Of a DNA stretch of 38,000 bases, positions 15 through 28,800 are shown piece after piece. A program made the position numbers and the translations under genes. Positions within the stretch are counted from its first letter, which is position 1, and every line of letters starts with the position of its first letter. The stretch is taken from the IMG/VR virus record IMGVR_UViG_3300001450_000098, positions 1-38,000 of that record. The stretch is one strand, 5' to 3'. Under the pieces are notes generated by a model. That model had not been told where the DNA came from. It did no database searches and saw nothing but the letters and a program-made list of their open reading frames with translations. This DNA is from a virus.

Positions 15-113
15 ATGAAAGATTGTTTTTGTGATAATTGTTTCTATGGCAGAAATAAATTAGCATTAGAATTATTAAAACTAAAACCAAAAGAAGATGA
101 GAGAAAGAGTTGA
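15..113 (+). CDS. tiny Cys-rich ORF, possible zinc knuckle
   Basis: A 32-residue reading frame starting at an ATG that overlaps an in-frame-1 TAA (TAATG at 13-17), which suggests coupling to a gene ending at the window's left edge. It carries a CFCDNC cluster near its N-terminus that could bind a metal. It reads through the first copy of the KPK cassette, giving LKLKPKED, and ends inside the next gene, overlapping it by 17 bases. Most other copies give KPKQR and an immediate stop; here the cassette is 4 bases shorter, so the frame shifts and the protein gains a few residues. Function is unknown. It is too short to be sure it is translated, and the frame is also open upstream to the edge, so a longer 5' part cannot be excluded. 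Confidence 0.4.
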   Translation: MKDCFCDNCFYGRNKLALELLKLKPKEDERKS

Positions 114-444
114 AAATATATTTTGGGAAGAAATGAAAGATGATACATCTTTTAATGATAATAGACCTTCCTCTATTAAAGAGTTTTTGTTTGGAGTTAG
201 TTATTCTAATAAAGACATGAGAGAAGCTTGGGATGGAGGGATAAGACTAGGTATTGAAATAGGATTAAGAAAAGCAAGTTTAGAAGGTCAAAAAATAGAG
301 TTAAATGCAAATACTTCTGAAGGTAAAAGTAAAGAGTTTCTTGAAAAATTTTATAAACTAGCAAGTGAATATAACTGTGCTATCCAATACCATCCAGAAA
401 TAGGAATGACTGTTAGACAATTAAAACCAAAACAAAGAATATGA
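97..444 (+). CDS. small phage protein of unknown function, 115 aa
   Basis: Not recognised. The protein is charged and soluble-looking, with an acidic N-terminus, a glycine-rich stretch (WDGGIRLGIEIGL, about residues 45-57) likely forming a helix, and a C-terminal part ending RQLKPKQRI. The final KPKQRI is encoded by the shared start cassette of the next gene, so it may be a by-product of that cassette and not part of the fold. Its ATG directly follows a shortened cassette copy. It overlaps the 32-aa ORF upstream by 17 bases and the next gene by 4 (ATGA at 441-444), so translation is probably coupled. It belongs to a run of small genes of the accessory or early type. Confidence 0.7.
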   Translation: MRERVENIFWEEMKDDTSFNDNRPSSIKEFLFGVSYSNKDMREAWDGGIRLGIEIGLRKASLEGQKIELNANTSEGKSKEFLEKFYKLASEYNCAIQYHPEIGMTVRQLKPKQRI

Positions 445-587
445 GTAAAGTAGTTAAAAGTAAATACCCACAAATGGATGGATATAGTAAGTGGACAGAA
501 GTTAGTGATTTCCTTGCTTGTGGGTTAGTAGGTGTAAAAGTTAAAACTAAGTTAAATCTAAAAGATACTAAACCAAAACAAAGATGA
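441..587 (+). CDS. 48-aa phage protein with KPKQR tail
   Basis: A short frame of 48 residues beginning MSKVVKSKYP and ending KDTKPKQR. It starts in an ATGA overlap with the preceding stop and itself ends in an ATGA overlap (584-587) with the next gene. Both junctions carry the cassette, which makes this a clean example of a cassette-gene-cassette unit. There is no recognisable domain and no membrane segment. Because both ends are fixed by the cassette logic I think it is a real gene despite its length. Function unknown. Confidence 0.6.
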   Translation: MSKVVKSKYPQMDGYSKWTEVSDFLACGLVGVKVKTKLNLKDTKPKQR

Positions 588-799
588 GTAGAGCAACAAG
601 ATATAGGATAAAGGAATATAACTTTCCTTATAATAGAACCAGTTGGGTTGTCCAAAGACGGTCAATATTTGGATTTTGGTATAATCCAGACAATGTAGAT
701 GGCAATACAACAGGGTGGTATGATTCGTTAAATGATGCTGAGAGAGCATTAAAAGCCAAGTTACATAAGACAACCTCTAAAGTTGTTAAAGAAATATAA
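584..799 (+). CDS. small basic phage protein, 71 aa
   Basis: Not recognised. A 71-residue protein with an aromatic, arginine-rich first half (YRIKEYNFPYNRTSW, then RRSIFGFWYNP) and a basic helical C-terminus (LNDAERALKAKLHKTTSKV). The ATG is preceded by the cassette and overlaps the previous TGA. The stop TAA at 797-799 sits at the start of another cassette copy that lacks a usable start codon, so the run of coupled genes ends here. A 231-base gene-free stretch follows. Confidence 0.6.
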   Translation: MSRATRYRIKEYNFPYNRTSWVVQRRSIFGFWYNPDNVDGNTTGWYDSLNDAERALKAKLHKTTSKVVKEI

Positions 800-1030
800 A
801 CCAAAACAAAGATAAGTGAAAATATAAATTTCTTTATTTTCATTTTTAACATTTATTGAAAATATGCGGTAAAACCTTCTTCAGTTAGTAGGGCAGTAAA
901 TAACTTAGGGACATTTTATTTATTAATTTGAAAGCTGAAGATTTTATAATCCTAGTGTAAAATGGCGTTTTAATGCATTTTAAACATTGTTAGCATTAGT
1001 ACGGAATATTAATAATTAAATTATATAAAA
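800..1030 (+). other. gene-free stretch with orphan cassette and inverted-repeat arm
   Basis: These 231 bases contain no plausible ORF: the few ATGs (for example near 864 and 962) meet stops within a few codons. The stretch begins with the orphan start cassette and a weak A/T hairpin around 815-838 (GAAAATA pairing with TATTTTC). A TCTTCAG/CTGAAGA pair about 70 bases apart could form a long-range stem. The left arm of the inverted repeat around the next gene lies at 985-1002. A promoter for the next gene could lie here, but I cannot point to a convincing Bacteroidota TAnnTTTG box. Confidence 0.5.
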
Positions 1031-1258
1031 ATGAAAGAAGTAATTAAAAAGTTAAACGAAGGATTAAAAGACCCAACTTACAGAATAGGCTGGACTGCAA
1101 ATATAGCAATGGCACAAATAGACTGTGAGCGTTGGTATAGAGAAGAAAACAATAAGGTAGGCAAATACCTTAATTACCAAGATAGATTAGCCATTGCGAA
1201 CAAAGGTGCTGAATACTTTCTTGAATTGTTAGCGAAGTAGTATTAATGCTAACGAATG
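985..1258. repeat. 18-bp imperfect inverted repeat flanking one small gene
   Basis: Arms at 985-1002 (CATTGTTAGCATTAGTAC) and 1240-1258 (GTATTAATGCTAACGAATG) pair over 18 base pairs with one bulged G and one G-U. The right arm begins at the last base of the stop codon. The arms enclose the 1031-1240 gene almost exactly. The pair could be an RNA stem or the ends of a small mobile or recombined segment. Confidence 0.6.
1031..1240 (+). CDS. small helical phage protein, 69 aa
   Basis: Not recognised. A 69-residue, probably all-helical protein: KEVIKKLNEGL, then a middle part with MAQIDCERWYREE, and a C-terminal helix LAIANKGAEYFLELLAK. The start context is TTATATAAAAATG, without the cassette used by its neighbours. 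It is the only gene in the first 2 kb preceded by a long gene-free stretch and the only one bracketed by inverted-repeat arms, so it may have its own promoter or its own history. No membrane segment or enzyme motif is seen. Confidence 0.7.
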   Translation: MKEVIKKLNEGLKDPTYRIGWTANIAMAQIDCERWYREENNKVGKYLNYQDRLAIANKGAEYFLELLAK

Positions 1259-1259
1259 G

Positions 1260-1284
1260 ATAAACTGAATAAATAAACTGAATA
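1260..1284 (+). repeat. tandem 12-base direct repeat
   Basis: ATAAACTGAATA occurs twice, at 1260-1271 and 1273-1284, separated by one base. The repeat fills the space between the right arm of the inverted repeat and the 8-residue leader ORF. It could be a small duplication or a protein-binding site; nothing in it decides between these. Confidence 0.6.
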
Positions 1285-1311
1285 ATGAAAAAACCAAAAC
1301 AAAGAAGATGA
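1285..1311 (+). CDS. 8-residue leader ORF MKKPKQRR made only of the cassette
   Basis: An ATG at 1285 is followed by seven codons that are the start cassette itself and then TGA, which overlaps the ATG of the next gene (ATGA at 1308-1311). The arrangement is the same as between the larger genes: a ribosome ending here would be placed on the next start. It may be a leader peptide that keeps coupling intact where no upstream gene runs into the cassette, or simply a chance ATG. Translation is not proven. Confidence 0.35.
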   Translation: MKKPKQRR

Positions 1312-1541
1312 CAATAGATAACTTAATTAGTTGGTTGCAAGAAGCTGAAGATAATAACACTTGGTTAGTAAGTACGCAAAGTGTAAAACGACACCTTGAA
1401 AAAATAAAAGAAACTGATCAATTAACTATACCTGTTGTTGTACAGCAAAGCGAACAGTATTGCGAATGCGAAAAACCAACTTTAGGGAAAAGTATTAGTA
1501 GGTGTGGCACTTGCGATGAATGGTTTAAACCACTTAAATAG
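1308..1541 (+). CDS. small phage protein with C-terminal Cys cluster, 77 aa
   Basis: Function unknown. The N-terminal half is helical (IDNLISWLQEAEDNNTW, then SVKRHLEKIKE). The C-terminal half carries CECEKP and CGTCDEWF, four to five cysteines in CxC and CxxC arrangements that could form a small zinc ribbon or treble-clef-like site. The ATG lies at the end of an exact cassette copy and overlaps the stop of the 8-residue leader ORF. A nucleic-acid or protein-binding adaptor is possible, but this is inference from the cysteine spacing only. Confidence 0.7.
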   Translation: MTIDNLISWLQEAEDNNTWLVSTQSVKRHLEKIKETDQLTIPVVVQQSEQYCECEKPTLGKSISRCGTCDEWFKPLK

Positions 1542-1587
1542 CAATATTGTGTACAACATAGAAATAAACTAAACCAAAACAAAGAAG

Positions 1588-1797
1588 ATGAGTAAAGAAA
1601 TAGTATATAGAACAATAGTGCTACCTAATGATGTAAAAGCAGGTGATGTAATACAAATTAAATTTGACACAGAGGGTGTTGTATATGATTTATTTGACAA
1701 CTCTATGGAAGAATGTAAAGAGGAATTTGGATATGACTTTTACACAGAAATAAAAGCATTAAACCAAAAAAAAGAAGGTGAGAAAAGCAATTCTTAA
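1588..1797 (+). CDS. small acidic phage protein, 69 aa
   Basis: Not recognised. It begins with beta-like segments (IVYRTIVLPNDVKAGDVIQIKFDTEG) and continues with an acidic helix (MEECKEEFGYDF). The opening resembles small barrel folds, but this is only an impression. The ATG follows an exact cassette copy; the 46-base spacer after the previous stop carries an in-frame TAA before the cassette, so coupling is broken here. The C-terminus reads through the next cassette in another frame (LNQKKEGEKSNS) and overlaps the next gene by 20 bases. Confidence 0.65.
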   Translation: MSKEIVYRTIVLPNDVKAGDVIQIKFDTEGVVYDLFDNSMEECKEEFGYDFYTEIKALNQKKEGEKSNS

Positions 1798-1978
1798 AAG
1801 AAAATACAGAAACTTGTATGTAAAAATACAAAACTACAAAGGGTATGATTGTGGGCATAAAATGATGTTAAATGTTAGTAGTGAATATTATAATCTAGTA
1901 AAATTATTTAATGACGTAGCAGATAAATTATCTAAAATGGACAATGATTGTCCATCATTTAGATTTGAATTAAATTAA
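1778..1978 (+). CDS. small basic phage protein, GTG start, 66 aa
   Basis: Not recognised. A 66-residue protein with a strongly basic N-terminus (RKAILKRKYRN) and a helical remainder (YYNLVKLFNDVADKLSKM). GTG occupies exactly the position where other cassettes place ATG, and no in-frame ATG offers a better start until a methionine about 28 codons in. This supports GTG as the true start and the cassette as the element that defines it. It overlaps the preceding gene by 20 bases, and its own TAA overlaps the next cassette copy. Confidence 0.6.
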   Translation: MRKAILKRKYRNLYVKIQNYKGYDCGHKMMLNVSSEYYNLVKLFNDVADKLSKMDNDCPSFRFELN

Positions 1979-1989
1979 ACCAAAAAAAG

Positions 1990-2187
1990 ATGGTAATAGT
2001 AATTAAGCCTATGGTTATTTTTGGAGATAAATGCTTATTATCTTATGGAATATTTAAGCAAAGTGGGTATGTTGTGTTTAGTGTAGTTATAGCATCTATT
2101 AGTTTTAATAGAAATACTCTATGTCTTTGTTTATGCTTACCCTATATTATAGAAGGGGCTTTATTTATACGAATATTAAAAAATTAA
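1990..2187 (+). CDS. small hydrophobic protein, probable membrane protein, 65 aa
   Basis: A 65-residue protein with long hydrophobic stretches: VIVIKPMVIFG at the start, YVVFSVVIASISF in the middle and TLCLCLCLPYIIEGALFI near the end. At least one and probably two membrane-spanning segments are likely. There is no cleavable signal of classic form. It is the last gene started by the cassette (a shortened copy at 1977-1992). Small membrane proteins of this kind are common among phage early genes, but no specific role can be read from the sequence. Confidence 0.55.
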   Translation: MVIVIKPMVIFGDKCLLSYGIFKQSGYVVFSVVIASISFNRNTLCLCLCLPYIIEGALFIRILKN

Positions 2188-6468: not shown

Positions 6469-6823
6469 AGTAGTTAAATATAATGAAATAGTTGAGGAGA
6501 TTTTAGAGGAAGATGAAGCATCTAGGGATTGTGATTATAAACTTTATTTTGAGTTAATAAATAAAATTAATGTTAATTATACAAATCATATGTTAGAAAT
6601 GACTTTAATGGATGCTTTACATTCTTGGCATAAGAAGAAAATTCCTTCTTTATTTTCTATATCAAGATCAAGAAGAATAATTCAAGAAAAGTATGCAAAC
6701 ATACCTAGTAAAAATTATTTGTGTGGTAATAGAAAAGAAAAAAAATCTCTAAGCGAAGAATTTGCAGAGGAAATAATAATTAATAAAATAAAAGAAAAAG
6801 ATGGAGATAACACTTCCAAATAA
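6461..6823 (+). CDS. hypothetical phage protein in replication block, 120 aa
   Basis: Not recognised. A 120-residue alpha-helical protein with a central LMDALHSWHKKKIPSLFSISRSRRIIQEKYANIP (about 50-82), whose IPS-SISRSRR stretch looks like a conserved DNA- or nucleotide-facing motif. A basic and acidic helix follows. I have the impression that such proteins recur beside phage replication genes, but I cannot name a family. It starts in an 8-base overlap and ends in a 23-base overlap with the Sak4-like gene, so it is translated as part of this operon. Confidence 0.65.
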   Translation: MTKVVKYNEIVEEILEEDEASRDCDYKLYFELINKINVNYTNHMLEMTLMDALHSWHKKKIPSLFSISRSRRIIQEKYANIPSKNYLCGNRKEKKSLSEEFAEEIIINKIKEKDGDNTSK

Positions 6824-7583
6824 AATATCAAAAGCGACTTATACAAGTCCTCATATATTATTGATATACGGTCCCCCTAAAGTGGGAAAATCGACCTTAT
6901 TGAGTAAATTAAAAGATTGTCTTATTTTAGATTTAGAAAATGGTACTAAATTCTTAGATGCTCTGAAAGTTAATTTAATTGGTTTAGAACCTTCTACTAT
7001 GGAGTCTGAAACAAATAAAAAAAAGAGACTAAAAGAAGGAGAATATTATTTATCTGAAATAGGAAAGGCAATACATAAGGCAGAAAAGCCTTATAAATAC
7101 GTAGCTCTAGACACAGTTACTAAATTAGAAGAATGGTGCGAATGGGAAGGAACTAAACTTTACATGCGCAGTAGTACTGGGAAGAATTTTAATAAAGATA
7201 AGCAAGGCGATGTTATGCCTCGATCAAAATGGTCTTCTGTATTAACATTACCTAATGGTGCTGGTTATTTTTGGTTAAGAGTAGCTATGAAAAAATGGCT
7301 TGATAAAATTTATACTTTAGCTGATCATATTATATTGGTTGGACACTTACTTGACAAACAGATAGAGAAAAAAGGAAAAGAAGTAAGTGCTAAAGATATA
7401 GATTTAACAGGCAAACTTAAACGAATTGTATGTGCTCACGCAGATGCAATTGGTTATTTATATCGTGATGGAGATAAAGCTTTCATCAATTTCAAAACTT
7501 CCGATGAAGTCAATTGTGGATCTAGATGTGAACATCTTCTAGGGAAAGATATTGAGTTTAATTGGAAATCAATTTATCGTTAA
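6801..7583 (+). CDS. Sak4-like RecA-fold ATPase (phage single-strand annealing/recombination)
   Basis: A 260-residue P-loop ATPase. Walker A is GPPKVGKST (24-32), directly followed by the ILDLENGTKFLDAL segment typical of Sak4/AAA_24 phage nucleotide-binding proteins. Walker B is YVALDTVTKLEEW (about 100-112, Asp104). A LVGHLLDKQIEKKGKEV loop follows, then the family's C-terminal beta part (IDLTGKLKRIVCAHADAIGYLYRDGD). Sak4 is a short RecA/Rad51-like protein that promotes annealing or strand exchange together with the phage SSB, and the SSB-like gene is next. It overlaps the preceding gene by 23 bases. Confidence 0.87.
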   Translation: MEITLPNKISKATYTSPHILLIYGPPKVGKSTLLSKLKDCLILDLENGTKFLDALKVNLIGLEPSTMESETNKKKRLKEGEYYLSEIGKAIHKAEKPYKYVALDTVTKLEEWCEWEGTKLYMRSSTGKNFNKDKQGDVMPRSKWSSVLTLPNGAGYFWLRVAMKKWLDKIYTLADHIILVGHLLDKQIEKKGKEVSAKDIDLTGKLKRIVCAHADAIGYLYRDGDKAFINFKTSDEVNCGSRCEHLLGKDIEFNWKSIYR

Positions 7584-14192: not shown

Positions 14193-15257
14193 ATGATTGT
14201 TAGTATGACTAAGTTTAGAAAGACTGAGGCGGCTTCTCCGTCTCGTCTTTCTGATCTTGATTATTCTCCTTTACAGTATAAAAAAAGGAAAGAATCAAGT
14301 GATAAAGACGCATCTACATTCATGATATTTGGAAGTTTAGTTGATTGTTTATTAACTGAGCCTTCTGAATTTAAAAATAGATATAGTGTTTCTTCCGTTG
14401 AAATTCCCAGTGATGCTATTAAGAATATTATTACTGGAGTATTTAATGAAATAAAATTAGGTAAAGAAGTTAGTCCTTTTTTAGAATTAGCTGATTTTGA
14501 GCCTAAAATAATAGAATATGCTAATTACGAACAATATGGTAAGAGTTGGAAACAAGAAACTGTCGTAAAAAAAGTAATTGACTCAGGTTCGGATTATTTT
14601 CAATCTTTATTAAAAAGTATTGGAAAAGAAATAATAAGTTCCGAAGATTATGATCGGGCTTTGGCCTGTGTTGACACTTTAAAAACTCATGAATTTACTA
14701 GAGATTATTTCGATCCTAAGTCTGTATATGGAACAGATGATTTAAATATTGAATTACATTTTCAATGTAAATTAGTCTGGAAAGTAGAAGAAAATACTTG
14801 TAAAGGTATTTTAGATTTAATGATAATAGATCATATAAATAAATTGATTATTGTTATAGATTTAAAAACAACAGCTAGTAGTGTATATACATTTTCACAT
14901 AGTTATATCAAGTTTAGATATTACTTACAAGGTGCTATGTATTATGACGCTGTAGTTGATTTAGTAAAAACTCTTCCAAAATTAAAAGACTATAAAATAT
15001 GTAATCCTAAATTTATAGTTATAGAACAGAATAATTATAATCCACCATTCATATATGAAATGAGTGATGAGGATTTGTTAGTAGGACGTTCAGGAGGTAT
15101 TTTAAAATCAACTAATAAGCCTATTAATGGTTATTTAAAATTAGTTGAAGATTTAAAATGGCATCAGGATATGGGTACTTGGGAGTATCCAAAAGATGTT
15201 TATTTAAATAAAGGAAATGTTAGTTTAAATTTATTAAGCTTTAATTTTAATGATTAG
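14193..15257 (+). CDS. PD-(D/E)XK nuclease (RecE/exonuclease VIII-like)
   Basis: A 354-residue nuclease. MIFGSLVDCLLTEPSEF (44-60) matches the N-terminal motif of the RecE/PDDEXK family, with Asp51 where His is usual. The active site follows as GILDLMI (205-211, Asp208), VIDLKTT (221-227, the D-x-K pair at 223/225) and YYLQGAMYYDA (243-253) with the Gln motif. Such enzymes degrade or trim DNA ends, giving single strands for annealing by Sak4 and SSB. The start could also be Met5 (14205). It overlaps the next gene by 8 bases. Confidence 0.88.
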   Translation: MIVSMTKFRKTEAASPSRLSDLDYSPLQYKKRKESSDKDASTFMIFGSLVDCLLTEPSEFKNRYSVSSVEIPSDAIKNIITGVFNEIKLGKEVSPFLELADFEPKIIEYANYEQYGKSWKQETVVKKVIDSGSDYFQSLLKSIGKEIISSEDYDRALACVDTLKTHEFTRDYFDPKSVYGTDDLNIELHFQCKLVWKVEENTCKGILDLMIIDHINKLIIVIDLKTTASSVYTFSHSYIKFRYYLQGAMYYDAVVDLVKTLPKLKDYKICNPKFIVIEQNNYNPPFIYEMSDEDLLVGRSGGILKSTNKPINGYLKLVEDLKWHQDMGTWEYPKDVYLNKGNVSLNLLSFNFND

Positions 15258-16275: not shown

Positions 16276-19200
16276 CTAATGTGTTCCTAAATTCTGCATA
16301 AATCTAGCACTTTCTTTAGTATGTTCTAATCTTTTAATTTGATTAGCGTATGGTACAAGATCATACCAATAACGAGCTGCTTTAGAAGTTCCTTTTCGTT
16401 TACCTCTTGTGTATATATCATACTCCATCCATTCGTTTCCAAAATCCCACATAGGTTCTGTAGTATACCATAAAGCATTTCCTAATTTTTCTACGGTAGA
16501 TACTGCGGCAGAAGGAGATCTTAATATTTTTAAAGTTTCTCCTGATGGTAAATAAAATAGCATTTCAGATTTTAATCTATATGCTTGATAAATTAACATG
16601 TTTTTAGTTGCTGCCACTAAATCGTCATCATCGTCATCTGGAGCTCCTAATATTGTAATTAATAATAAAGTACCAATTAAGAAAGATATTTCAGAAAGAG
16701 TTCTTTTGATTCCTTGTTTTTTCCATTCAGGCAATGTACTCCACCCATTTTTTTCTTTATTTAATATAGCCAGCCCTATTCCAGTACCTTTTAATTCTTG
16801 TCTTACCTGTTTAAGAAATTGATAGGTAATAGCATAATTACCTGCAATATTAGCTCCGAGCCTCTGATCAAAACTATCTTGTCCATCAAAAGTGGCCGAA
16901 GCATATCTTCTATTAAACCCAGGCCTTAACCATTTACGAAATAGCAAAGCTAGCCTACCAAGTGCATATCTTTGTATTGCAGGTTGATCTTTTTTAGAAT
17001 AGTTTCCGTGTAATCTTTGATAAACTCCTTTAATTCTCTCTGTAAATCTAATTAATTGTTCTCTTTTCACTGTTTCTTTAGTCCAAACAGCCCCGTCTTT
17101 AATCTCTATTAAATCTCTAACAGTGGATCCTAATTCCTCAAATTCTAATCTAGTTTTTTTATTAATAGCTTTATTATTAGCTATTGCCCAATCTGTATGA
17201 TTTATTATTTCGCCATTAATAAGTCTATGAGACTTCATCATTGCAATAGTTAATTCAGATTGTATCATGTGTTCCCCCGAGCTTTGTAAAAAATAAGAAG
17301 CTTTTCCTACAATTCTAGCCAATTTAGAACTTGATTCCATAGGTTTTCCATTTTGATCAAATTCTTGGAATATATCATACTGCTCCATAAATAAATTTAA
17401 CCAGCTTTCTGAGAATCGTGAAGTAGAATCTTTTATAATTTGAGGTAATAATTTAGTGTATTCTACTTTAGCTGCTAGATAATCTTTTCTTCTATAAAAT
17501 TGTCCTCCAGCTCCTTCTATTGCATTCATTACTTGTCCTATAGCAGAGTTATTAATTCCTGAATAAAGGTTTAAAGATAGCTGCGTTAAAGAAGTGTGTT
17601 TCATAAGTAAATCAGCAGCTTTTCCTGTATTAATACCTGCCCATTCCTCTCCTTTCATTTTTTTCTCGCCATATACCACCATACTTAAGTAACTACTTAA
17701 TCTTTCGTAAGCATAAGACTCGATTCCTGGTTGGTCTACTAGTTCTTGAGTAGTTCTATCTCTAAGTTTCGTAGATCCTCTTTTTTTAGTAAATCTCCTA
17801 TCACCAACTAATGCTTTAGTGGCCTCTAGTTCTACTAAAATAGAGTTCATAGCTGAATAATTCTTAGCCATAGTCATAAACTGTAATAAACTCTCGCCCA
17901 TATTCATTGAAACATCTTCGATAGCTATTCCCGCAGGTCCTTTTGCTCCAATTTTTGCTGCATAATTAATAGGTACAAATTTGTATTCTTTGCCTTGTTC
18001 GTCTACAAAAACCTCACCGTATTCAGTCTCATCGCCTCTCATTTTGACTTGATCTCCTAAGTACTTTGAAGCAGCTTTAACTCCCGATTTAAATCCTTTC
18101 ACATCTTCCCAAGCTCTAGCACTTCCTGATTTTAAAATAGGAATTAATTGATATCCCCTTCTATATCCAGGAGGTAACATTTTTTGATGTTTAGAGTATA
18201 ACTCATGAAACATTTCTAAAAAATCTTGTTCGGGTTTAGATAATTCTTTACCAATTTTTGATTTAGGATCTATATACCTTCCTAAGTTTTGGCCTTTAGT
18301 TCCTTTTTCTACCATAAAATCATACATTTTTTCATGGTTTGTAATAGAAATTCCCCTGGATTTTTTATATTTTTCTAACGCAAGTATTACTTTTTTATAT
18401 TTTCCGTTCTTAAAAGATTCTATATTATAATTTACTTCGCTCATTTTACTAGATACAGCTCTATCTACAAGTGCTAATACTTGATCAGGAGACTCTGCTA
18501 ATGAATCTAAATTAGCCTGAAACCAGCTTATATCATCATTAACATGGGTAAACATTTGCCTGAGCTTATCGGAAGTTAATTTAGAATCAGTATTATATTC
18601 CATTAGGAAGTCTACTATAATATCTTTAGATGCACTAATATAACTTCTTTTTACAGATCTTATAGTTGTTATTACTGGAGATATATACGCATCTCTAAAT
18701 GCGGTATCTACTACAATTTCTTCCCCACCTGCTGAAAATGTTTTATTTTGTAAATCTCCATATATTTCCTCAACTAAATCAAAGGCTGATAAATAATCAG
18801 CAGATCTAGCTAATTTTTTTAATAATAATCTTTTTTCTTTTTTAGTTGCTTTAGGATCATTAATAGCCGTTAATATTTCAGGAATAGTATTTTCAGAAGC
18901 AACAGTAGCCTCTGAATAAGCAAACTCTAAAAAAGACATAATAGCACTAGCGTTTTCTCCTTTGACTATATCAAGTTGTATTTTATTTATTTGCGCTTGT
19001 AATGTTTTAGCAATAGGATTTTCTTTTCCTTCTTTTTTCTTGTAAAAGCTTAATTTCTTCTTCAGTATTCCAACGGCTCTATTAGCTAGTTTTTTTCTAT
19101 CTTCTAATTCTTTTTTGCCTTTTTCTGTTAATCCTTCTGTCTCTGCTCTTATTATAGCCTCATCTGTAGTTTCTGGTAATTCTGGTACTTTGTCGCTAGC

Positions 19201-19878
19201 TTCAGCAGTATCTTCTGCTATACCTTGAGTAGCAAGTATTACTTGATTTGGGTATAAATTAATTATGTCACCATCTTTTTTCTTACTATCGAATTTTTTT
19301 CTACCATCTCTTTTTTCACCTTTAGCTCTTTTTACATTTAAAAATACAGGTAAAGTACTTTCTTCTATAGGCATCGGAATTTTTCCTTCATATTTTTCAG
19401 GCTTAGAAAACTTACCTGCTTTTGATATATTAGAACTAAATACAAAACTATCTTTTGAAAAAGTAAAATCACTGTCTATCATGTACATTAATTCAGGCTC
19501 TCCTTGAGAATTTACTGCGTAAGATACTTGCCCATCTCTAGGCTTTATGATTCCTACTATAAAAGCAGATTTTTTACCTGCTGTTCCTGATTTAGCAACA
19601 GTGACGGCTCGATAAAAAGCAGTGCCTGGTCCAAATCTATTATTTAAAAAATCAACATGCTTCTGCGCTTCTTCTTCAGTCTCTTGTTCTGGTTTTAATA
19701 AATTTTTCTTGATGTAATTAAAATTGTGGTATAATTCCCAATTACCAAATTTAGCTTTGAAATCATTCCCATTAATAAATTCATAAGTATCATCAGCTAC
19801 TTTTGTACCATAAGTTTTTTCTAACTCAGTATAAAGTTTACTATCTTCTCCTGTTATAGTTTTAATTTTACAAGCCAT
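16276..19878 (-). CDS. giant late protein, probable virion cargo, 1200 aa
   Basis: Not assigned to a family. It is mostly helical and charged, with a beta-rich N-terminal 200 residues (TAFYRAVTVAKSG, SAFIVGII) and a long central helical region. The C-terminal part contains one hydrophobic segment (SFLIGTLLLITILGA, about 1063-1080) followed at once by six aspartates (about 1081-1086), then an amphipathic end (NQIKRLEHTKESARFMQNLGTH). The start ATG shares its A with the stop of the 4694-aa gene (TAATG), so the two are translated together and probably packaged together. In crAss-like phages, neighbours of the virion RNA polymerase are large ejected cargo proteins; that is the basis for this inference. 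The hydrophobic helix could touch the host membrane. Confidence 0.72.
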   Translation of the reverse strand: MACKIKTITGEDSKLYTELEKTYGTKVADDTYEFINGNDFKAKFGNWELYHNFNYIKKNLLKPEQETEEEAQKHVDFLNNRFGPGTAFYRAVTVAKSGTAGKKSAFIVGIIKPRDGQVSYAVNSQGEPELMYMIDSDFTFSKDSFVFSSNISKAGKFSKPEKYEGKIPMPIEESTLPVFLNVKRAKGEKRDGRKKFDSKKKDGDIINLYPNQVILATQGIAEDTAEASDKVPELPETTDEAIIRAETEGLTEKGKKELEDRKKLANRAVGILKKKLSFYKKKEGKENPIAKTLQAQINKIQLDIVKGENASAIMSFLEFAYSEATVASENTIPEILTAINDPKATKKEKRLLLKKLARSADYLSAFDLVEEIYGDLQNKTFSAGGEEIVVDTAFRDAYISPVITTIRSVKRSYISASKDIIVDFLMEYNTDSKLTSDKLRQMFTHVNDDISWFQANLDSLAESPDQVLALVDRAVSSKMSEVNYNIESFKNGKYKKVILALEKYKKSRGISITNHEKMYDFMVEKGTKGQNLGRYIDPKSKIGKELSKPEQDFLEMFHELYSKHQKMLPPGYRRGYQLIPILKSGSARAWEDVKGFKSGVKAASKYLGDQVKMRGDETEYGEVFVDEQGKEYKFVPINYAAKIGAKGPAGIAIEDVSMNMGESLLQFMTMAKNYSAMNSILVELEATKALVGDRRFTKKRGSTKLRDRTTQELVDQPGIESYAYERLSSYLSMVVYGEKKMKGEEWAGINTGKAADLLMKHTSLTQLSLNLYSGINNSAIGQVMNAIEGAGGQFYRRKDYLAAKVEYTKLLPQIIKDSTSRFSESWLNLFMEQYDIFQEFDQNGKPMESSSKLARIVGKASYFLQSSGEHMIQSELTIAMMKSHRLINGEIINHTDWAIANNKAINKKTRLEFEELGSTVRDLIEIKDGAVWTKETVKREQLIRFTERIKGVYQRLHGNYSKKDQPAIQRYALGRLALLFRKWLRPGFNRRYASATFDGQDSFDQRLGANIAGNYAITYQFLKQVRQELKGTGIGLAILNKEKNGWSTLPEWKKQGIKRTLSEISFLIGTLLLITILGAPDDDDDDLVAATKNMLIYQAYRLKSEMLFYLPSGETLKILRSPSAAVSTVEKLGNALWYTTEPMWDFGNEWMEYDIYTRGKRKGTSKAARYWYDLVPYANQIKRLEHTKESARFMQNLGTH

Positions 19879-22800
19879 TAGTTACATTTTTTATTTTTTC
19901 TTATTGCGCCTATTCTCTCTTTAGGATTGTTAGTCTTTGCATTAATAGCCATTACATCTGAACCTGTTAATTCTTGAAAATTATATTCTTGTAATTTAAA
20001 AGGAGTTCCCTTAGTTTCTGCTTTTACATAAGTAGCTCTGTCTCCACGGTCTCTTACTTTTTGATATAATAAATATTCTTGATTTTTATTATTGTAAAGT
20101 AAGAAAAATTTAGAGAAAGATTGTAAATCTCCACTATATGCAGAAGATTTTTTAGTTAATGTAATTTCTCTGTTATTAGGAGTTATTCCATTCTTAGTAT
20201 TTTTTCTAACACTTGGTATTAAGTTTCTTAAATGCTTATTATTTTTTACAAATTCTTCTGAAAAACCTTTCCAGAAATTAGGATCTGAAAATGATTGATT
20301 AACATTTTTCTCGTAAAAATCAGTCATTGATGTTTTTTCTTCTAGTAAAGAAAAGTCAGCATCATTCCAAACTTCATTAGGAATAATATCTATAAAAGAA
20401 TCTATTCCAGTATTAAATCCTTTACTCAGGATATTATAATAAACTAAATTTTTTCCAAAATTTCTTATAGTTTCATTTTCATTATAAATTAAGGTCGCTA
20501 AATCATCCGATAAAGCAGAAACTTCAGTAGGGCTTAAAGCAAAAGAGTAATCAAAAGACAATATTTTTTCTTCAAATCTAGGAGTTATAATAGTATCTGT
20601 TTTTCCTGTCATATCTACTATTATCTCATTTTCATCTAATTTAGCATTATCTATATGGGTATCTAAAGATAAAATAAATTTATTATTAGCTAATTTTCCT
20701 AGTTCTGAATTTTTACTTGATTTTTTTATTAAGTCTCTAATGTTTAAATATTGATTTTCTATATTGTTATCTCCTGTTAATAAGTCTTTCTTCCAAGAAG
20801 TACTAAATAAAGGGCTTATCGGGCTAGGAATTTGCTTTTGGCTGTAAAACCATACCATAGAAGCATTATTGATAGCCTGTATTTGATCTTTATTTAAATT
20901 CTTTTTATTTAAGTCTTTTCTAATTTGGTTTTTAGTTGTTCTTAAACCGTATCTTAAATAAGGAAAAAATAATTCTGAAAATTCTAATGAATCCATAAGA
21001 GCATCAGTAAAACTAGAACTAATTCTAAATTTTTCTCCGTCTAATACATCTTCAAATCCTTTTATAAACTTATTTCTGTTAGGATCTTGTATTTCAGTAG
21101 CAATTTGAAGAAAATCTTCAATAGCCGCCATGGAGCTCATATCTTTTATTCTATCAGAATTATATACCTTATTTACTTTGTTAAGCATTCTACCTGCTTG
21201 GTGATAAAAATAAAAATTAACTAATACTGCTTTTTGCAAATCAGTATCATCCTCAATATCTTTATTTTCTAAGATAAAGTCTTTTAAATCTTTTGTAGAT
21301 ATAGGAAATGTATTTTTAAAATCTTGTAATTTAAAACCTCCCCTAAAATATTTTTTACCTAATCTTTCTATAAAGAATTTTAAATTACCAGGGTTACCCT
21401 CTTCATTTAAATATGCTTCATTTAATTCTCTTATTATAGGCTGTGTTCTGAACCAGGTAGCTACTTCTGTAGAATCTCCTGTGGTATCAGTTCCTTTTAT
21501 GGCCAATCTTTTATTACTAATTCCTGAGCTTACAATAAGATTTGTTACTGGAGAAGTTAATGATGTATCCTGTATAATATCCATCATAGGATCTTTACCA
21601 TTATCTACTGCTAAATTTAAATGCTTATTAAATAAGAATGTAATTAAAGTATTAGTTCCATCTCTTACTGTGTTAAGTTTCTTTTTTATTTTTGTATCAA
21701 ATTTAACAGCATAAGAAGGTAATAATTCTAAAGTATTACTATGCTGCCTAATAGCAGCTCCTGTTAAGTTAGTTGCGTATATTCCAATACCTGTCTTACC
21801 TGTCTTATTTCTAAATTCTAAAGTTGACTCAGTATTTACATTTTGAGGATCTACTTTTTCTGAGAATTTTTCTGGATTAGCTTTTCTAATTTTATTAGCC
21901 AAATCAGGTAGTGTCTGAGAATCTACTGATTGTACAACTTCTTCTAAGTGTGCGCTATTAAGTAAAATACTATTAGCTAAATCTATAAAAGCATTTTCTA
22001 AAGTTCTTCTATCTCCTACTTTTAGATTGTTAATATCGTAAGGTACTTTTATTGCTTTTCTACTCACTTCAAAATAATTAGCTCTTCTATCTAGTTCCAT
22101 ACTTGCTTGAATAGCCGCTCCCTGTAAGTCAAGAGTTCCATATCTTAGTATATCTTCTGCGTAATCTTTACTTTTTAATAAATTACTCGCTTCTACATTA
22201 TTTAATTTAAAACCTTGTTGTAGCATTAAAGACTTAAAAGCCCCTGTTTCTTCCCAAACATCTCCTTTTTTTGTAGTGTATTTTATATTAAAATTAGGAA
22301 ACATTAGAAATAATTTATCTATATCATAATCAGAACCCATCTGTGTAGCGATTTCTGAAGGAACTAATATAGCTTTTCCCATAGCAGAAGTTAAAATTCT
22401 TTTTATTTTCAATGGAAGCATTGAATTTTTACCTTGCGTAGGTATACGATATCCTATAATTTCTAATAAATTAGGATCTATTTTAGATATATCATATTCT
22501 CCATCTTCACCTTTAGGCAGGTTTAATTTTTCTGCTAAATGGTAAGGTAAAGCTACTTCAGCAGCAATAATTTTACCTTCTTTATTTCTAATAAAATCTA
22601 AATCATTAATGTCTCCATTTTGTTCTCTGAATCCACCAAGCTCCGCTATTTGTACTAAAGCTTTACCGTTAATACTAGGACGCATTAAATTATTTCTAAA
22701 TAAACTAAATATAATAGACTCAAACTTTTTTTGATAAGCAGGCATTCCTATTGGAGTTGAAAATCCATAACTATCTGCTTCTTCAAATTGTCCTGTAAGT

Positions 22801-25800
22801 TTATTTTCTACAAATTCTACAATAGGTTTAATATTTAAAGCCTTTATATAATTATCAGGAAGGTCATTATTCTCTGCTGACTTTCTTAAAACTTGTCTTA
22901 AACTTTTTAAGAATTTTAACTTATCTTCTTTATTTCTATTAGACTCAACATATTTATCGTACCCTAAATCATTATATAATTTTCTTCTTCCCGTCTCTAT
23001 CATTTTCTCAATTACTTCATTATACTTTTGAAGTACTTCTTCTCCTGACATCTGTACTTTACCTACAGTGTAACTTCCATCTAAATTCTCAATAACATTA
23101 GCAGGTAACAACTTCATTAATTGAGACCCTATTTTACTTTCTTTTTCTTTATTACTTACTATTTGTGGGATTCTTTGGTTTCTTGTTTCTAAAGTAGTTA
23201 CATACATGTCATCTAAATTGGTAATCCTACCATTTTCATCTATTTCAACTTCTAGAGAATCTGTCAATCCTACTTTAATAGCTGAGTCCATATTAACTTC
23301 ATCTACTTTATTAATTTCCATCCACTCTCTAAGCGAATCAAATGTTGGACGATTTTTAGTAAATTCTTTTATTAAAGGAAAAGTAGAGTGTTTTACAAGT
23401 ATTCTAACCATTCTACCATTCTTTAGGTATAGGCCGTCATGATAAGTTTTAATAGGATCTAGTTTAGGAATTACTGTATTACCTTCTACATCTTTCCAAG
23501 AAAAATTACCTGTTTTTAAATAATTTTTATACGCTAAATCATGGCTATCAAGCCAAGTTCCTTGGCCTTCCATCTTAGCTTTATGCTTTTTTATAGTTGT
23601 AAATCCTATACCATCAGCTCTATTAGAACCTTTACCGTTATTTCCTTCTTTATATGCCTTTACAGATTCTTTTCCTGCGATTTTTTCAAGTTCGTCTAAT
23701 AATGCCTCATCTTTCTTAAATAAATCATTAATAGCGCCCATTTCGTATTGAGTCATATCTCCATAAGTAGCTCCTTTAGCAAACTCTTCTAACCAAGCTT
23801 CTAATCCTGGAGTTGTTATTCCACCGTTTCTTTTAGAAAATGTAGCATAGTTTTTATATAATGCTAAATCCCCAGCTGTCATTTTTCTAAATTCATTCTG
23901 GCCTATTAGAGTAGAAACTACATAATCTTTTATAAAAGCATCTAAATCCCCATTATATATAGCTAATCCATTTGGATCTATAGGATTTGTTTTTCTTCTT
24001 CCACTCTGCGAATCTATTTTTAATTTTCTTATATCTTCTAATTGCTCTTCTACCTGATTATTTATATATACTTCTATTTCAGTTAATACATTTTTAAATA
24101 AAGAATATATTTCAGGGTCTTTATCTTGAGCCTCTCTAGTCAAATCATTACTTCTATATAGTAGTTGATCTTCAGAATTTTTTAAAGCATATTCTAGTAA
24201 TTTTTTACCTGCTTCATTATCATTTAAAAATTCAAATTGACTGTATCTTAATCCTCTAGCTTCTTCTTTATGAATGTGAAGAGCATCTACTTTTGGGCCC
24301 TTAGTGTTGAGATCACTATAAGTTCTTTGTGCTCTTTTAAGATCTTGTACTACATATCCTAATAAGATTTCTTGAATATTTTTATCTCTATATTGATGTA
24401 ATTTTTTATTATAACTAATTCTGGGAACAGTCATAAGAATCATCTTAGACCTATCTGCTAATGTTGGAGCTACTATTTTCATCTCCCTTTTGTTTCCGTT
24501 ATTAGCAAAAGAATTTAATCTATGTAATTTGGATAATAATGGAGACATATTATCAAATGTATTTTGACTAGTAGCTTCATTTTTTCTTTTGTAAGTATCA
24601 AATTCTTCAATATCTAATATTGATTTAAATCTAGACTTACCAGAGATTATTTCAGATAAGAATAAAGCATTATAAGGACTTTCTTTATTTCCTTCAGGAA
24701 AATAAAACTGATCTTTAGTAAAATCCATAACCCAATTATTCCAAAAAGAACCTTCTTCTATATTAAAGGATTTAAATGCATTAAATTGCCTAGTTAATGA
24801 TGTATGCATATTAATAGGATAAATAGATTTACCCTCTCCATTTATGAAAGATCCTCTAACAGCCTCTTCAAATTCTTTACTAATATTTAAAAATCTTTGT
24901 ATAACTCCTCTATCATGTAAAAACGGATCTTTATTTTTCTTAAGATTTTTGATTAAAGTATTTAGTCCTATATTATTATTACTATGTCTAGATTTTCCAT
25001 CAGTTAAGTATCTATATAACTCTCCTGAATTGATTATTTCAGTACCTATTTTTATACCAGATTCTAAAGATTGCGCCAAAACAGCAGGAGATATATCAAT
25101 AGACATTAAGTTAAGAAAATCAGATAATGCTTGAATATGTTTTTGGTCTGGAATAGCTTTGTCTGTTTTTATCTCGCTTATTACTTTTAAAAGGTCTTGC
25201 ATGTAATCTACTTTAACCTTGTCTACTATTAAAGTACCTACTTCAGATTTAACTAATAGTCCTTTATTATCACTTCTTCTGGATTCTAAGTTCCATTTTT
25301 TATAAATCCTATTTTCAGATTTATTAGTGTTGGTATTAAAATATCTTATTTTAAAAGTTATATCCTGTCCTCCACCTTCAAGCTCTATAATATCAACTTC
25401 TTCTATTGCTCCTACAAAATTTAAATAAGTAAGAGATAAGTTTTTATAAAAATCTGCTAAAAATTGCCAGTTTTCTTTACGCACTTCTTCTTCTAGCATA
25501 GTAGCTACAGTATTTAAAGGCTCTTTAGTAATTCCTGAAATTTTTAATTTATTTAACATATCATTAAATGAAACAGAATTAACTATTGTATAGGCTACAT
25601 CCTCATAGATTTGATCAAATGGAATTGTTTTTTTAGTATTTCCCCCTAAAATAGTTGGAACTACTTTACCATCTTTTAATTCAGGAACTTTACTTAAGAA
25701 AGCCTTTACTTTTCCTGATAAAGAATCTTTTCTACTTTCTTCAGCATAATTTCTATTATAAATTCTTTCGTCAAATACATCATCTTCTATTTCAGTAGTT

Positions 25801-28800
25801 AAATCTCCAACTACTGTAATTCCCCATTTAGAAAGTTGTCTTTTTGCTAAGTATTCAAATCCAAATCCTTCTTCTGATATATTCTCAAATTCATCTTTAG
25901 TAAGTTTTGTATTCCACCTCTTGTATATAGAGCCAAATAATTTCCATTTTTTAGCAACTTTAATATTAGAATCTTTTCCTTTATTAAAAACTTTAGTTCC
26001 TTGTGATAATAAATCGTAATGTTTTTTAGCTACTTCTAGATCAGGATTACTTACTATTCCGTTATCTTCTTGTAAAAACATTCCTTTTAAGAAGGTATTT
26101 TTAATATTAAGATATACTTTGTTAGGATTTATTCTTTGTCCTGAGCTCGTTATACTTTCATATATCCTAGTAAACTCGCTATTAATACTATTTAAAATTT
26201 CTTCTTGTTCTGTAGTTGTAAACCCTTTTACAAGTGAAAAAGCATCTTCTTGTTTATACCTTTGATTTACATATTTACGATTGATTTTACCTGATTCTAT
26301 ATTAGAAAATAGCTGATCAATAGTTCTACCTTTAGAAATATAGGTAGTCATGTAATTAAATAAGTCTTTAAAGAATTTAGCTATACGACTTAATAATCCC
26401 TTTGGTTTCTGATTGGAAAGAACATAGCCTCTAAATTGTTCAGCTAATCTCTCTTCAAGGATCATACGCTCTAAGTCTTTTTTACTTATTTCTACTTCTC
26501 CATTAAGAGTTTTCTTAAATATTTTTTCCTCTTTTCCTGTAGATACAATAGTTTGTTTGCCAAAATCAGTTGGTCTATTATTTTTTACAGACTTTTCATC
26601 ATTAATAATTTCTTCTATTCTTACGTTTTTTGAATCAAAAACAACAAATCCATAGTCTTGATCTACACCATCATATGCCAATCCATATACTATACCGTCA
26701 TGACCAAGAGCTTCTAACTCTTTTTTCTTAGCAGCATATCCCTCTTCTGAATTTGGATTATCTACTAATGTATCTATAAAGCCATTATGAACATAAGGAT
26801 TTTTAAGATTTATAGAAACCTTGTGTACATTATGGCCGAGAATATCTTTTCCTTCTAGCAAGTCTGTTTTAGACTCTCTCATTTTGGCAATAGTCATGTA
26901 TTTTTCAGAAAAGAAAAATCCTAATTTAGCGTCTGGGGCGTTAGTATTTTTACCAATTTCTAAATATGAAATTTCGTTTATTTTGTTTTGAGATATATGA
27001 AATACTTGACGCTTTACTTTTGAATCCTTAAAAGAATTCGCTTTAGTTGATAAATCAATTTCTTCTTCAACTTCTTTTAAGTAAGAAGTATTTAACGTTC
27101 TTTTGGCTTTATAAAGATTTTCTTTTTCTTTTAATTTAAAATATCCCTCTTCTTCTTTTTGTTTTAATTCTTCTTCAGTTACTTTTCCTGCTTCTTTTAA
27201 GATTTGATCCTGTTGAGCATCTGTTAAGAATGTTCTAAATACTGCATGGAATGCTTCATGATACTCTGTACCGTGCACTGCATTTTCCTTTAAGTATATT
27301 AACCCTTGATGAAATGCTCCAGCAATGTTCGCATCTAATCCATTTCCGAACATTTTTATTACTTGTTTACTTTGGTCAAAAGTTAATCCTCTAGCTTGTA
27401 ACCAAGCAGACGCCTCTTTAATATTGATTCTTTCTCCTCCAGTATCCACTAAACTAAAAGGTGGAGAGTCATCATCTTCTAATTCTCCTTCTTCAGTATC
27501 TAAGAAAGAAGATCCAGTTTCTGTATCATTATTAAAATCAAGATTATCTTCTTCTACTACTGTATATCCTGGACTAGTATCTTTTGTAGAAGTTTCTTCT
27601 TTATTTTGCGCACTATCTGCTAATGTTCCAGGTATAGTAAAGTTCATACCTACATCAAAGAAAAAATTACCATCAGCTCCTCTAACATCTGTTGCTATAA
27701 TAGTATTTGGACGTCCTTCTCTAGGTTCATCTACTTCATTATTAGGATTTCCTTCTAAGTCTGGAGCCCCCATTAAATAGTGCTCATAGCTTGCATATTC
27801 TTGTCCTGTTACAGGACTTACGTAATCTCTACTACTTCTTAGTTGAGTATTATCAATATTGTACTTTTTATTTTGTACTAATTCTCTTAATAATTCTTTT
27901 ACATCAAGTTCGACAGTTTCTTCAGTTTTACGTAGTACAAATTTATCTTCTGATCCTTTTTTTACATTAGTAATTACTTCTACTTGTACTTCTGCTTTAG
28001 TATCGCTTTTAACGGCTTTTACATAATCTTGTAAGGATATACTATAGAATACTTCTCCTGACTTAAATTTAATATATTTTTCAGTTGTCTTAAAGTTTTC
28101 ATTTAACTGTAAAAAAGTATCAAAGTATAGTGCCTGATCGTCTTGATAATTTGCAAAAATTATATCATTTACTCCCGCAAAATCTCCATCCTCTATTTTC
28201 TGCATTATTACATCTACAGCATTTTCAGATATGTAAGAAGTTGATAATTTTATTGGAATATAATGCCCACTTGGATTTATTATAGTAGTAAAAGCATGTC
28301 CATCTTGATTTCCTAATGCTTGCTCTAAATCTAAAGCAGATAAACCGTCCTGTATTTCAGGAGATGCATTTTCTGTATTTAATTGGGGAGAAACATCTCC
28401 AAAAGTTTGAGAACCAGTTGTTCCAAATACATACATGGGAGCATTATTTACAGCTAAAACGTAAGAACCATTTTTTAATGTCCAAGCAGTTTTAAATGCA
28501 TCCCACCCTGATTGAAAAAGAGGGACCCCTTGTTCGGTTTTGGCATTTCTTATATTTTTTTTATTTACAGTATTACTATGATTTGTATTTCCATAGTTTA
28601 CTATTTTTACAGCTGCTTCTGTTTTCTCATCATTCTTATAATTTGTCCAGATAGCCTTTCTTGCGTCTTTATAATCAAAACCTCCCTTTAGCTTTCCAAC
28701 AACTTCATAAAAATCCATATCAGGATTATATATTTCTACATACATAGGAACATATATATAATGATCACTTTCTTTTTTACTGTCTTTTGTTTTTTCCCAC

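Follow-up and report, generated by a model that had tools for sequence, protein, structure and literature searches.

A repeated start-adjoining cassette in tiny-gene arrays of unrelated phages: a probable translation element and a junction for gene exchange

Introduction

The first 2 kb of the viral record IMGVR_UViG_3300001450_000098 raise the question of why a cluster of tiny genes should have almost the same A-rich sequence in front of one start codon after another. We analysed positions 1 to 38,000 of this record; the whole stretch of 38,000 nucleotides is called the window below. An original prediction, made from the letters of the window, had described eight near-identical cassettes at start or former start positions and had proposed that they form a modular unit of initiation and coupling, which also offers homology for the exchange of small genes. 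We consider it probable, at roughly 70%, that the cassette serves ribosomes not relying on Shine-Dalgarno sites as a stop-start translation element and, at the same time, is a junction where tiny genes are shuffled.

Cassette copies in the window

The cassette is about 20 bases long and has the sequence TTAAACCAAAACAAAG(AAG)ATGAGTAAAG. Eight copies, starting at 84, 424, 570, 798, 1291, 1571, 1761 and 1977, were located where they had been predicted, and seven of them adjoin a start codon with an open reading frame (ORF) behind it (97, 441, 584, 1308, 1588, GTG 1778 and 1990). When up to three mismatches were allowed, the window contained eight matches, whereas the mean of 100 shuffles was 0.92 and the maximum 4; the six best matches all fell within the first 1.8 kb of the 38 kb. 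The copies at 1291 and 1571, described as exact over 20 bases, proved to be identical over 21 (1571-1591 for the second copy). The cassette had also been said to encode KPKQR as the tail of upstream genes and to supply an ATGA stop-start overlap. The tail is present in two upstream ORFs only, 97-444 (ending KPKQRI) and 441-587, and is incidental; the overlaps were found at 441/444 and 584/587, and the remaining junctions are in other frames.

Occurrence in other viruses

A 25-mer of the cassette including the start was found at 48 viral loci, whereas a scrambled 25-mer of equal composition and with the same start was found at none, so the conservation of the cassette indeed goes beyond that of a generic A-rich leader. 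The 23-mer of the +3 form occurred at 32 viral loci and the 20-mer of the short form (the AAACCAAAAGAAG form) at 28. The 14-base core had at least 144 viral matches, and an ATG lay within about ten bases of 62 of the 144 core matches listed. The start-adjoining pattern was present in 32 of 33 virus records and a reversed control pattern in none of the 33. Within a record the copies are usually gathered on one strand in a single block of a few kb; stray copies occur now and then, and some records have a second block. In one genome (G001) nearly all of about 25 sites lie in the first 5.5 kb.

To judge from their genes, the carriers belong to unrelated phage groups, namely crAss-like, T4-like and jumbo phages. 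The crAss-like carriers are the window, G024, G025 and L133, and the others are myoviruses with T4-like terminase, portal and gp25-like proteins, jumbo genomes among them. Absence from close relatives had been named as the outcome that would speak against the prediction; G024 and G025 both have the cassette. No protein family was common to all carriers, and the widest, which we read as a gp25-like baseplate protein, was present in 10 of 15. The arrays, predicted to be early-gene arrays of Bacteroidota phages, are not limited to one phage group; the early timing of their genes is our inference.

In 257 Gb of bacterial and archaeal genomes only four stretches with a cassette 20-mer were found. 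One of them (L174), in a Campylobacteraceae bin, is probably a misbinned phage contig, as it encodes a phage-like helicase and has cassettes at four sites. Among cultured phages, no start-adjoining copies were seen in phi14:2, in immuto or in the examined half of the gut crAss phage cr118_1, and two arrays searched as DNA in 50,697 phage records gave no match. In the papers searched, the cassette core did not appear in print.

Conservation of the cassette

Over 226 non-redundant start-adjoining sites the consensus was TTAAACCAAAACAAAG(AAG)ATGAGTAAAGAAGAA. The start codon adjoins the cassette with a spacing of 0 or +3. At the spacing-0 sites, positions -14 to -1 were nearly invariant and T was found at -15 in 89%; upstream of about -17 no strong conservation was seen among the 226 sites. 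The cassettes were about 94% identical, whereas the gene bodies averaged 79%, a figure biased by the selection of the sites. The ORFs behind the cassettes are short (median of 59 amino acids, compared with 126 for all genes), and since their pooled pN/pS over 35 pairs was 0.29, they represent real proteins.

It is clear that the conservation acts at the nucleic-acid level and that KPKQR is a mere by-product, because upstream genes enter the cassette in all three frames: at 239 sites an upstream ORF arrived in frame 0 in 47 cases, in the ATGA frame in 58 and in the third frame in 88, and at 46 there was none. One protein ends in either KPKEDE or NQNKDE, and the cassette form or the tail can differ between occurrences of the same gene. 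A coding constraint on KPKQR is ruled out as the cause by this variation and by the entry in all frames. The TAA at -15 was retained where it does not serve as a stop (40 of 49 and 64 of 75 spacing-0 sites). The cassette contains stops in all three frames, namely this TAA, the TGA of ATGA and the TAA of ATGAGTAA, so that a gene terminates at the next start or beside it, whichever frame it enters in.

Exchange of tiny genes between phages

Pairwise alignment of 44 distinct arrays yielded 100 blocks of 90 bp or more that two arrays have in common, with 200 ends. Inside cassettes of both phages we found 105 of the 200 ends, compared with 6.5 for random placement (maximum 15 in 1000), and 35 blocks had both ends in cassettes against 0.14 under the null, as would be expected of the modular unit with homology for exchange that had been proposed. 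Two carriers, G009 and the 380-kb G006, share five modules with 96-99% DNA identity, which are arranged in a different order and have every edge at a cassette, whereas their portal proteins are 39% identical. In the window, the module at 1567-1775, which extends from cassette to cassette, is 90% identical in DNA to L133 and L136, although L133, itself crAss-like, is distant from the window: the identity between the two phages is only 27-34% for helicase, primase and RIIA. Positions 419-545 share 81% identity with L154, which is a contig from a T4-like phage near G009, and the crAss-like G025 and the T4-like G011 have cassette genes in common with amino-acid identities of 58% and 76%. It is thus well supported that tiny genes are swapped singly between phages as cassette-to-cassette blocks, across phage orders too.

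Assembly chimeras are an unlikely source of these arrays: two contigs from different metagenome samples, L114 and L129, have the same array with 4570 of 4720 bases identical. A mechanism based on a tyrosine recombinase was rejected, PF00589 being present in only 2 of 26 records.

Translation initiation

In Flavobacterium johnsoniae, A at positions -3, -6, -12 and -13 has been measured as raising initiation (PMC6847099). These four bases were A in at least 99% of the spacing-0 sites; the +3 form does not have A at -13. Up to its last base the cassette core consists of A and C only, and cassette sites were less structured than other starts (unpaired 0.65 versus 0.55, p about 1e-14). Shine-Dalgarno signals were found at a fraction of 0-0.12 of starts in carrier phages, G004 with 0.30 being an exception, compared with 0.42 in T4. 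That the cassette is not a Shine-Dalgarno site, as had been stated, agrees with its pairing with Chryseobacterium 16S rRNA, whole or tail, which did not exceed that of shuffles. We noticed that UUAAACCA is perfectly complementary over 8 bases to the 16S segment UGGUUUAA at about position 930 (L291). Pairing of the cassette with 16S rRNA was rejected as a mechanism, as overall it did not exceed that of shuffled cassettes.

From its position, the identity of its bases and its lack of structure, the cassette appears to act in initiation and coupling. It would be a portable stop-start junction in arrays of tiny, probably early, phage genes. The unstructured A/C stretch with A at -3, -6, -12 and -13 would provide a strong initiation region independent of context and would also couple neighbouring genes, and because of both an inserted gene could be expressed at once. 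Crossing-over would take place within the common sequence by homologous or annealing recombination, for which annealing proteins such as Sak4 are candidates, and exchange and selection for expression would sustain each other. A broader proposal, which we regard as possible but put forward tentatively, is that unrelated phages of one host group use a common, standardised expression joint, with a stop in every frame plus a start, as a drop-in for tiny genes in any frame, so that crAss-like, T4-like and jumbo phages draw on one circulating pool of interchangeable tiny genes. A sequence-specific reader, beyond the known base preferences of the ribosome, may recognise the joint.

Several points weigh against this interpretation. 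The random placement with which the 105 block ends were compared draws no distinction between cassettes and any other gene boundary, and as the alignments run through the shared cassette, the crossover point cannot be placed within it. The loci were collected by means of the cassette, which biases the conservation figures upward, and some homologues of cassette genes occur without it. AT-rich DNA often has stops in all three frames, and those of the cassette may be incidental. A Bacteroidota host is probable, to judge from relatives, and the carrier G004 has Shine-Dalgarno-like sites at many of its larger genes, so the ribosome context may differ there. Finally, CC at -10/-11 and C at -5 exceed the known needs of Bacteroidota initiation, which leaves room for a separate RNA- or DNA-binding reader. 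Phage bS21 was considered for this part and rejected, having been found in only 6 of 27 records.

Alternative explanations

The best surviving alternative, which nevertheless seems unlikely, is that the cassette is a promoter for a phage or phage-modified RNA polymerase, each tiny gene receiving a nearly leaderless transcript. Crassvirales have virion RNA polymerases, the conserved stretch of about 30 bp (-17 to +14) with its base specificity looks more like a promoter than like a ribosome site, and the cultured Flavobacterium phage immuto has a promoter-like block of the host type before most of its tiny genes. However, these per-gene promoters of immuto look different from the cassette. The Bacteroidota -7 element TAnnTTTG was found upstream in only 3 of 176 sites, while shuffles gave 4.0, and the lack of strong conservation beyond -17 is equally unfavourable to a promoter. 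A start codon that adjoins the cassette at 0 or +3 follows a rule of translation, genes overlap the cassette in all frames, and crAss-like and T4-like phages would need one common polymerase specificity.

Slightly less probable still is that the cassette has no function of its own and hitch-hikes passively with swapped genes, kept alike by recombination. Exchange is frequent with ends in the cassette, and conversion could homogenise the copies, but this would not account for the constant distance from the start codon, kept whatever the frame of the upstream gene, or for A at all the determinants measured in Flavobacterium; the excess of cassette identity over that of gene bodies, with its selection bias, also speaks for function. 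We find it harder again to believe that the cassette is an mRNA site for a phage translational regulator that switches the whole array on or off. Sequence specificity at the start codons of many tiny genes would suit such a protein, and RegA of T4 acts at the starts of early genes, but RegA (PF01818) was detected in none of 27 records, a weak result since the control gave no signal, no protein family was common to all carriers, and bS21 was limited to the 6 records mentioned above. Ordinary Bacteroidota A-rich start context, similar by composition only, is scarcely credible even though A-rich leaders of a generic kind are usual in these phages, and at the sequence level it is refuted by the scrambled 25-mer and the reversed pattern.

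Comparison with known elements

The cassette had been suggested to be an undescribed system. The combination of features at the junction is new, while two precedents share parts of it, the start-associated sequence, SAS (PMC3203893), and the promoter early stem-loop, PeSL (as cited in PMC4503421).

The SAS and ESAS repeats of cluster K mycobacteriophages, for which the reader is unknown, have been proposed to act in translation start (PMC3203893). Like the cassette, the SAS is a short asymmetric repeat located in one orientation just before the starts of many non-structural genes; it can contain the stop of the upstream gene, and it is virtually absent from the host (PMC3203893). In contrast to the cassette, it has the Shine-Dalgarno core AGGAG, lies 3-7 bp upstream of the start, is essentially restricted to one phage cluster, and half of the copies carry additional inverted repeats (PMC3203893). 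The cassette has no Shine-Dalgarno sequence, adjoins the start, contains stops in three frames, occurs in unrelated phages and marks exchange points. Its consensus TTAAACCAAAACAAAG has no AGGAG and does not correspond to the SAS consensus GGGATAGGAGCCC with its Shine-Dalgarno core, although it too is a repeat fixed in one orientation just upstream of non-structural starts.

The PeSL elements of T4-like phages were reportedly described by Arbiol in 2010 and Comeau in 2014. As cited in PMC4503421, they resemble the cassette as repeated regulatory sequences between small genes in plastic regions with gene-by-gene shuffling, but they consist of a promoter and a terminator placed between genes, and the phages that they shuffle are closely related T4-like ones. 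Both mark the ends of exchanged small-gene modules. The cassette, however, has neither a terminator hairpin, as its A/C-only core cannot pair with itself, nor a promoter element of the host type; genes overlap it, and the exchange reaches crAss-like phages. Since it lacks the SAS consensus as well as the promoter and hairpin of the PeSL, the cassette resembles both at once and is a member of neither. What appears to be new is a single junction sequence with a presumed translational role and without Shine-Dalgarno sequence, promoter or hairpin, common to different phage orders and located at the ends of swapped genes.

In lambdoid phage modules such as the nin region, conserved sequences at overlapping gene boundaries have been proposed as recombination linkers, but they are not known to comprise a single sequence at every start across unrelated phages. 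Integrons have a tyrosine recombinase and palindromic attC sites; the cassette is asymmetric and unstructured, and the recombinase family is as rare among the records as mentioned above. The Kozak-like region of Flavobacterium has the same four A positions (apart from -13 in the +3 form) and is likewise unstructured, but it is a statistical base preference, whereas the cassette is a fixed sequence with invariant cytosines (PMC6847099).

The cassette suggests a concrete mechanism for the gain and swap of tiny genes without an assigned function, for which an action on the host is often suspected, and it shows an exchange across phage orders in which the junction sequence is visible. Among possible sequence-specific start signals of bacteria that make no use of Shine-Dalgarno sites, it is a strong candidate. 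It can also serve as a search handle, as a simple scan finds otherwise unrecognisable tiny-gene arrays together with their true start codons.

The array and other genes of the window

The array lies on the plus strand. A cassette of the short or variant form AAACCAAAAGAAG (84..96), which the close relatives L122 and L123 have in the same form, adjoins ATG 97 of a gene for 115 amino acids (97..444) without a Pfam or PHROGs match. At 424..440, AAACCAAAACAAAG+AAT with the exact core adjoins ATG 441 in an ATGA overlap with the upstream gene; the gene behind it encodes 48 amino acids (441..587). The exact core AAACCAAAACAAAG at 570..583, again with an ATGA overlap, adjoins ATG 584 of a gene for 71 amino acids (584..799), the TAA stop of which (797-799) is the first part of the next cassette. 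In that copy (798..811) the exact core is followed by ATA instead of ATG, a relic or former start without an ORF. Two copies of the +3 form with the exact core follow: AAACCAAAACAAAGAAG at 1291..1307 adjoins ATG 1308 of a gene for 77 amino acids (1308..1541), and the copy at 1571..1587 adjoins ATG 1588 of a gene for 69 amino acids (1588..1797) within the exchanged module (1567..1775). A cassette with one mismatch (1761..1777) adjoins GTG 1778 of a gene for 66 amino acids (1778..1978), whose stop is the TAA of the degenerate cassette AAACCAAAAAAAG (1977..1989); the latter adjoins ATG 1990 of the array's last gene, which encodes a hydrophobic protein of 65 amino acids (1990..2187). When ten tiny proteins were scanned against each library, there was no Pfam match above the cut-off and one PHROGs match, to a family without an assigned function.

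By its gene content the window is a fragment of a Crassvirales (crAss-like) phage, because its DnaB is 40-44% identical to those of crAss-like genomes, its plus-strand genes match helicases, DnaB, Sak4, primase, RusA, RIIA/RIIB and an exonuclease, and an ORF of 4694 amino acids on the opposite strand is placed like the giant ORF at 16381-31221 of cr118_1, with matching layouts. The core replication genes and the giant opposite-strand ORFs thus follow the gene order of crAss-like phages. At 16276-37970 there are four large minus-strand ORFs (1200, 4694, 940 and 393 amino acids) with a layout like that of the structural and polymerase genes of crAss-like phages; they had no match in PHROGs. On the plus strand, a Sak4-like single-strand annealing protein (6801..7583; phrog_124 of PHROGs, E 3.6e-27) is a candidate agent of short-homology exchange, and an exonuclease VIII-like nuclease (14193..15257; phrog_412 of PHROGs, E 5.9e-32) may be its partner.

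Observations on other phages

In the T4-like G004 (L217-L220, e.g. 30876-31772 and 66065-66214), Shine-Dalgarno-like sites were found at 30% of the larger genes, compared with 6% after shuffling. Many of them lie in the late or structural region, and G004 encodes a bS21-like protein. Flavobacterial ribosomes without bS21 are reported to gain Shine-Dalgarno recognition (PMC9976891). A switch of ribosome preference during infection by G004 is conceivable, a different host being the simpler alternative.

In immuto (L286), a long array of tiny genes at about 17600-25100 has most genes preceded by the promoter-like block (GTTG..., TATATTTAG) and shows a fixed leader, TCAATAATTAAAAC, so that it forms another repeated expression unit for tiny genes. 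In addition, 9-mers like TATTTATAA, which resemble T4-type late promoters, were enriched within 24 bases of the starts in G004, G005, G009, G010, G026 and G027; in G001, TTAATATATA was observed at gene starts in their place.

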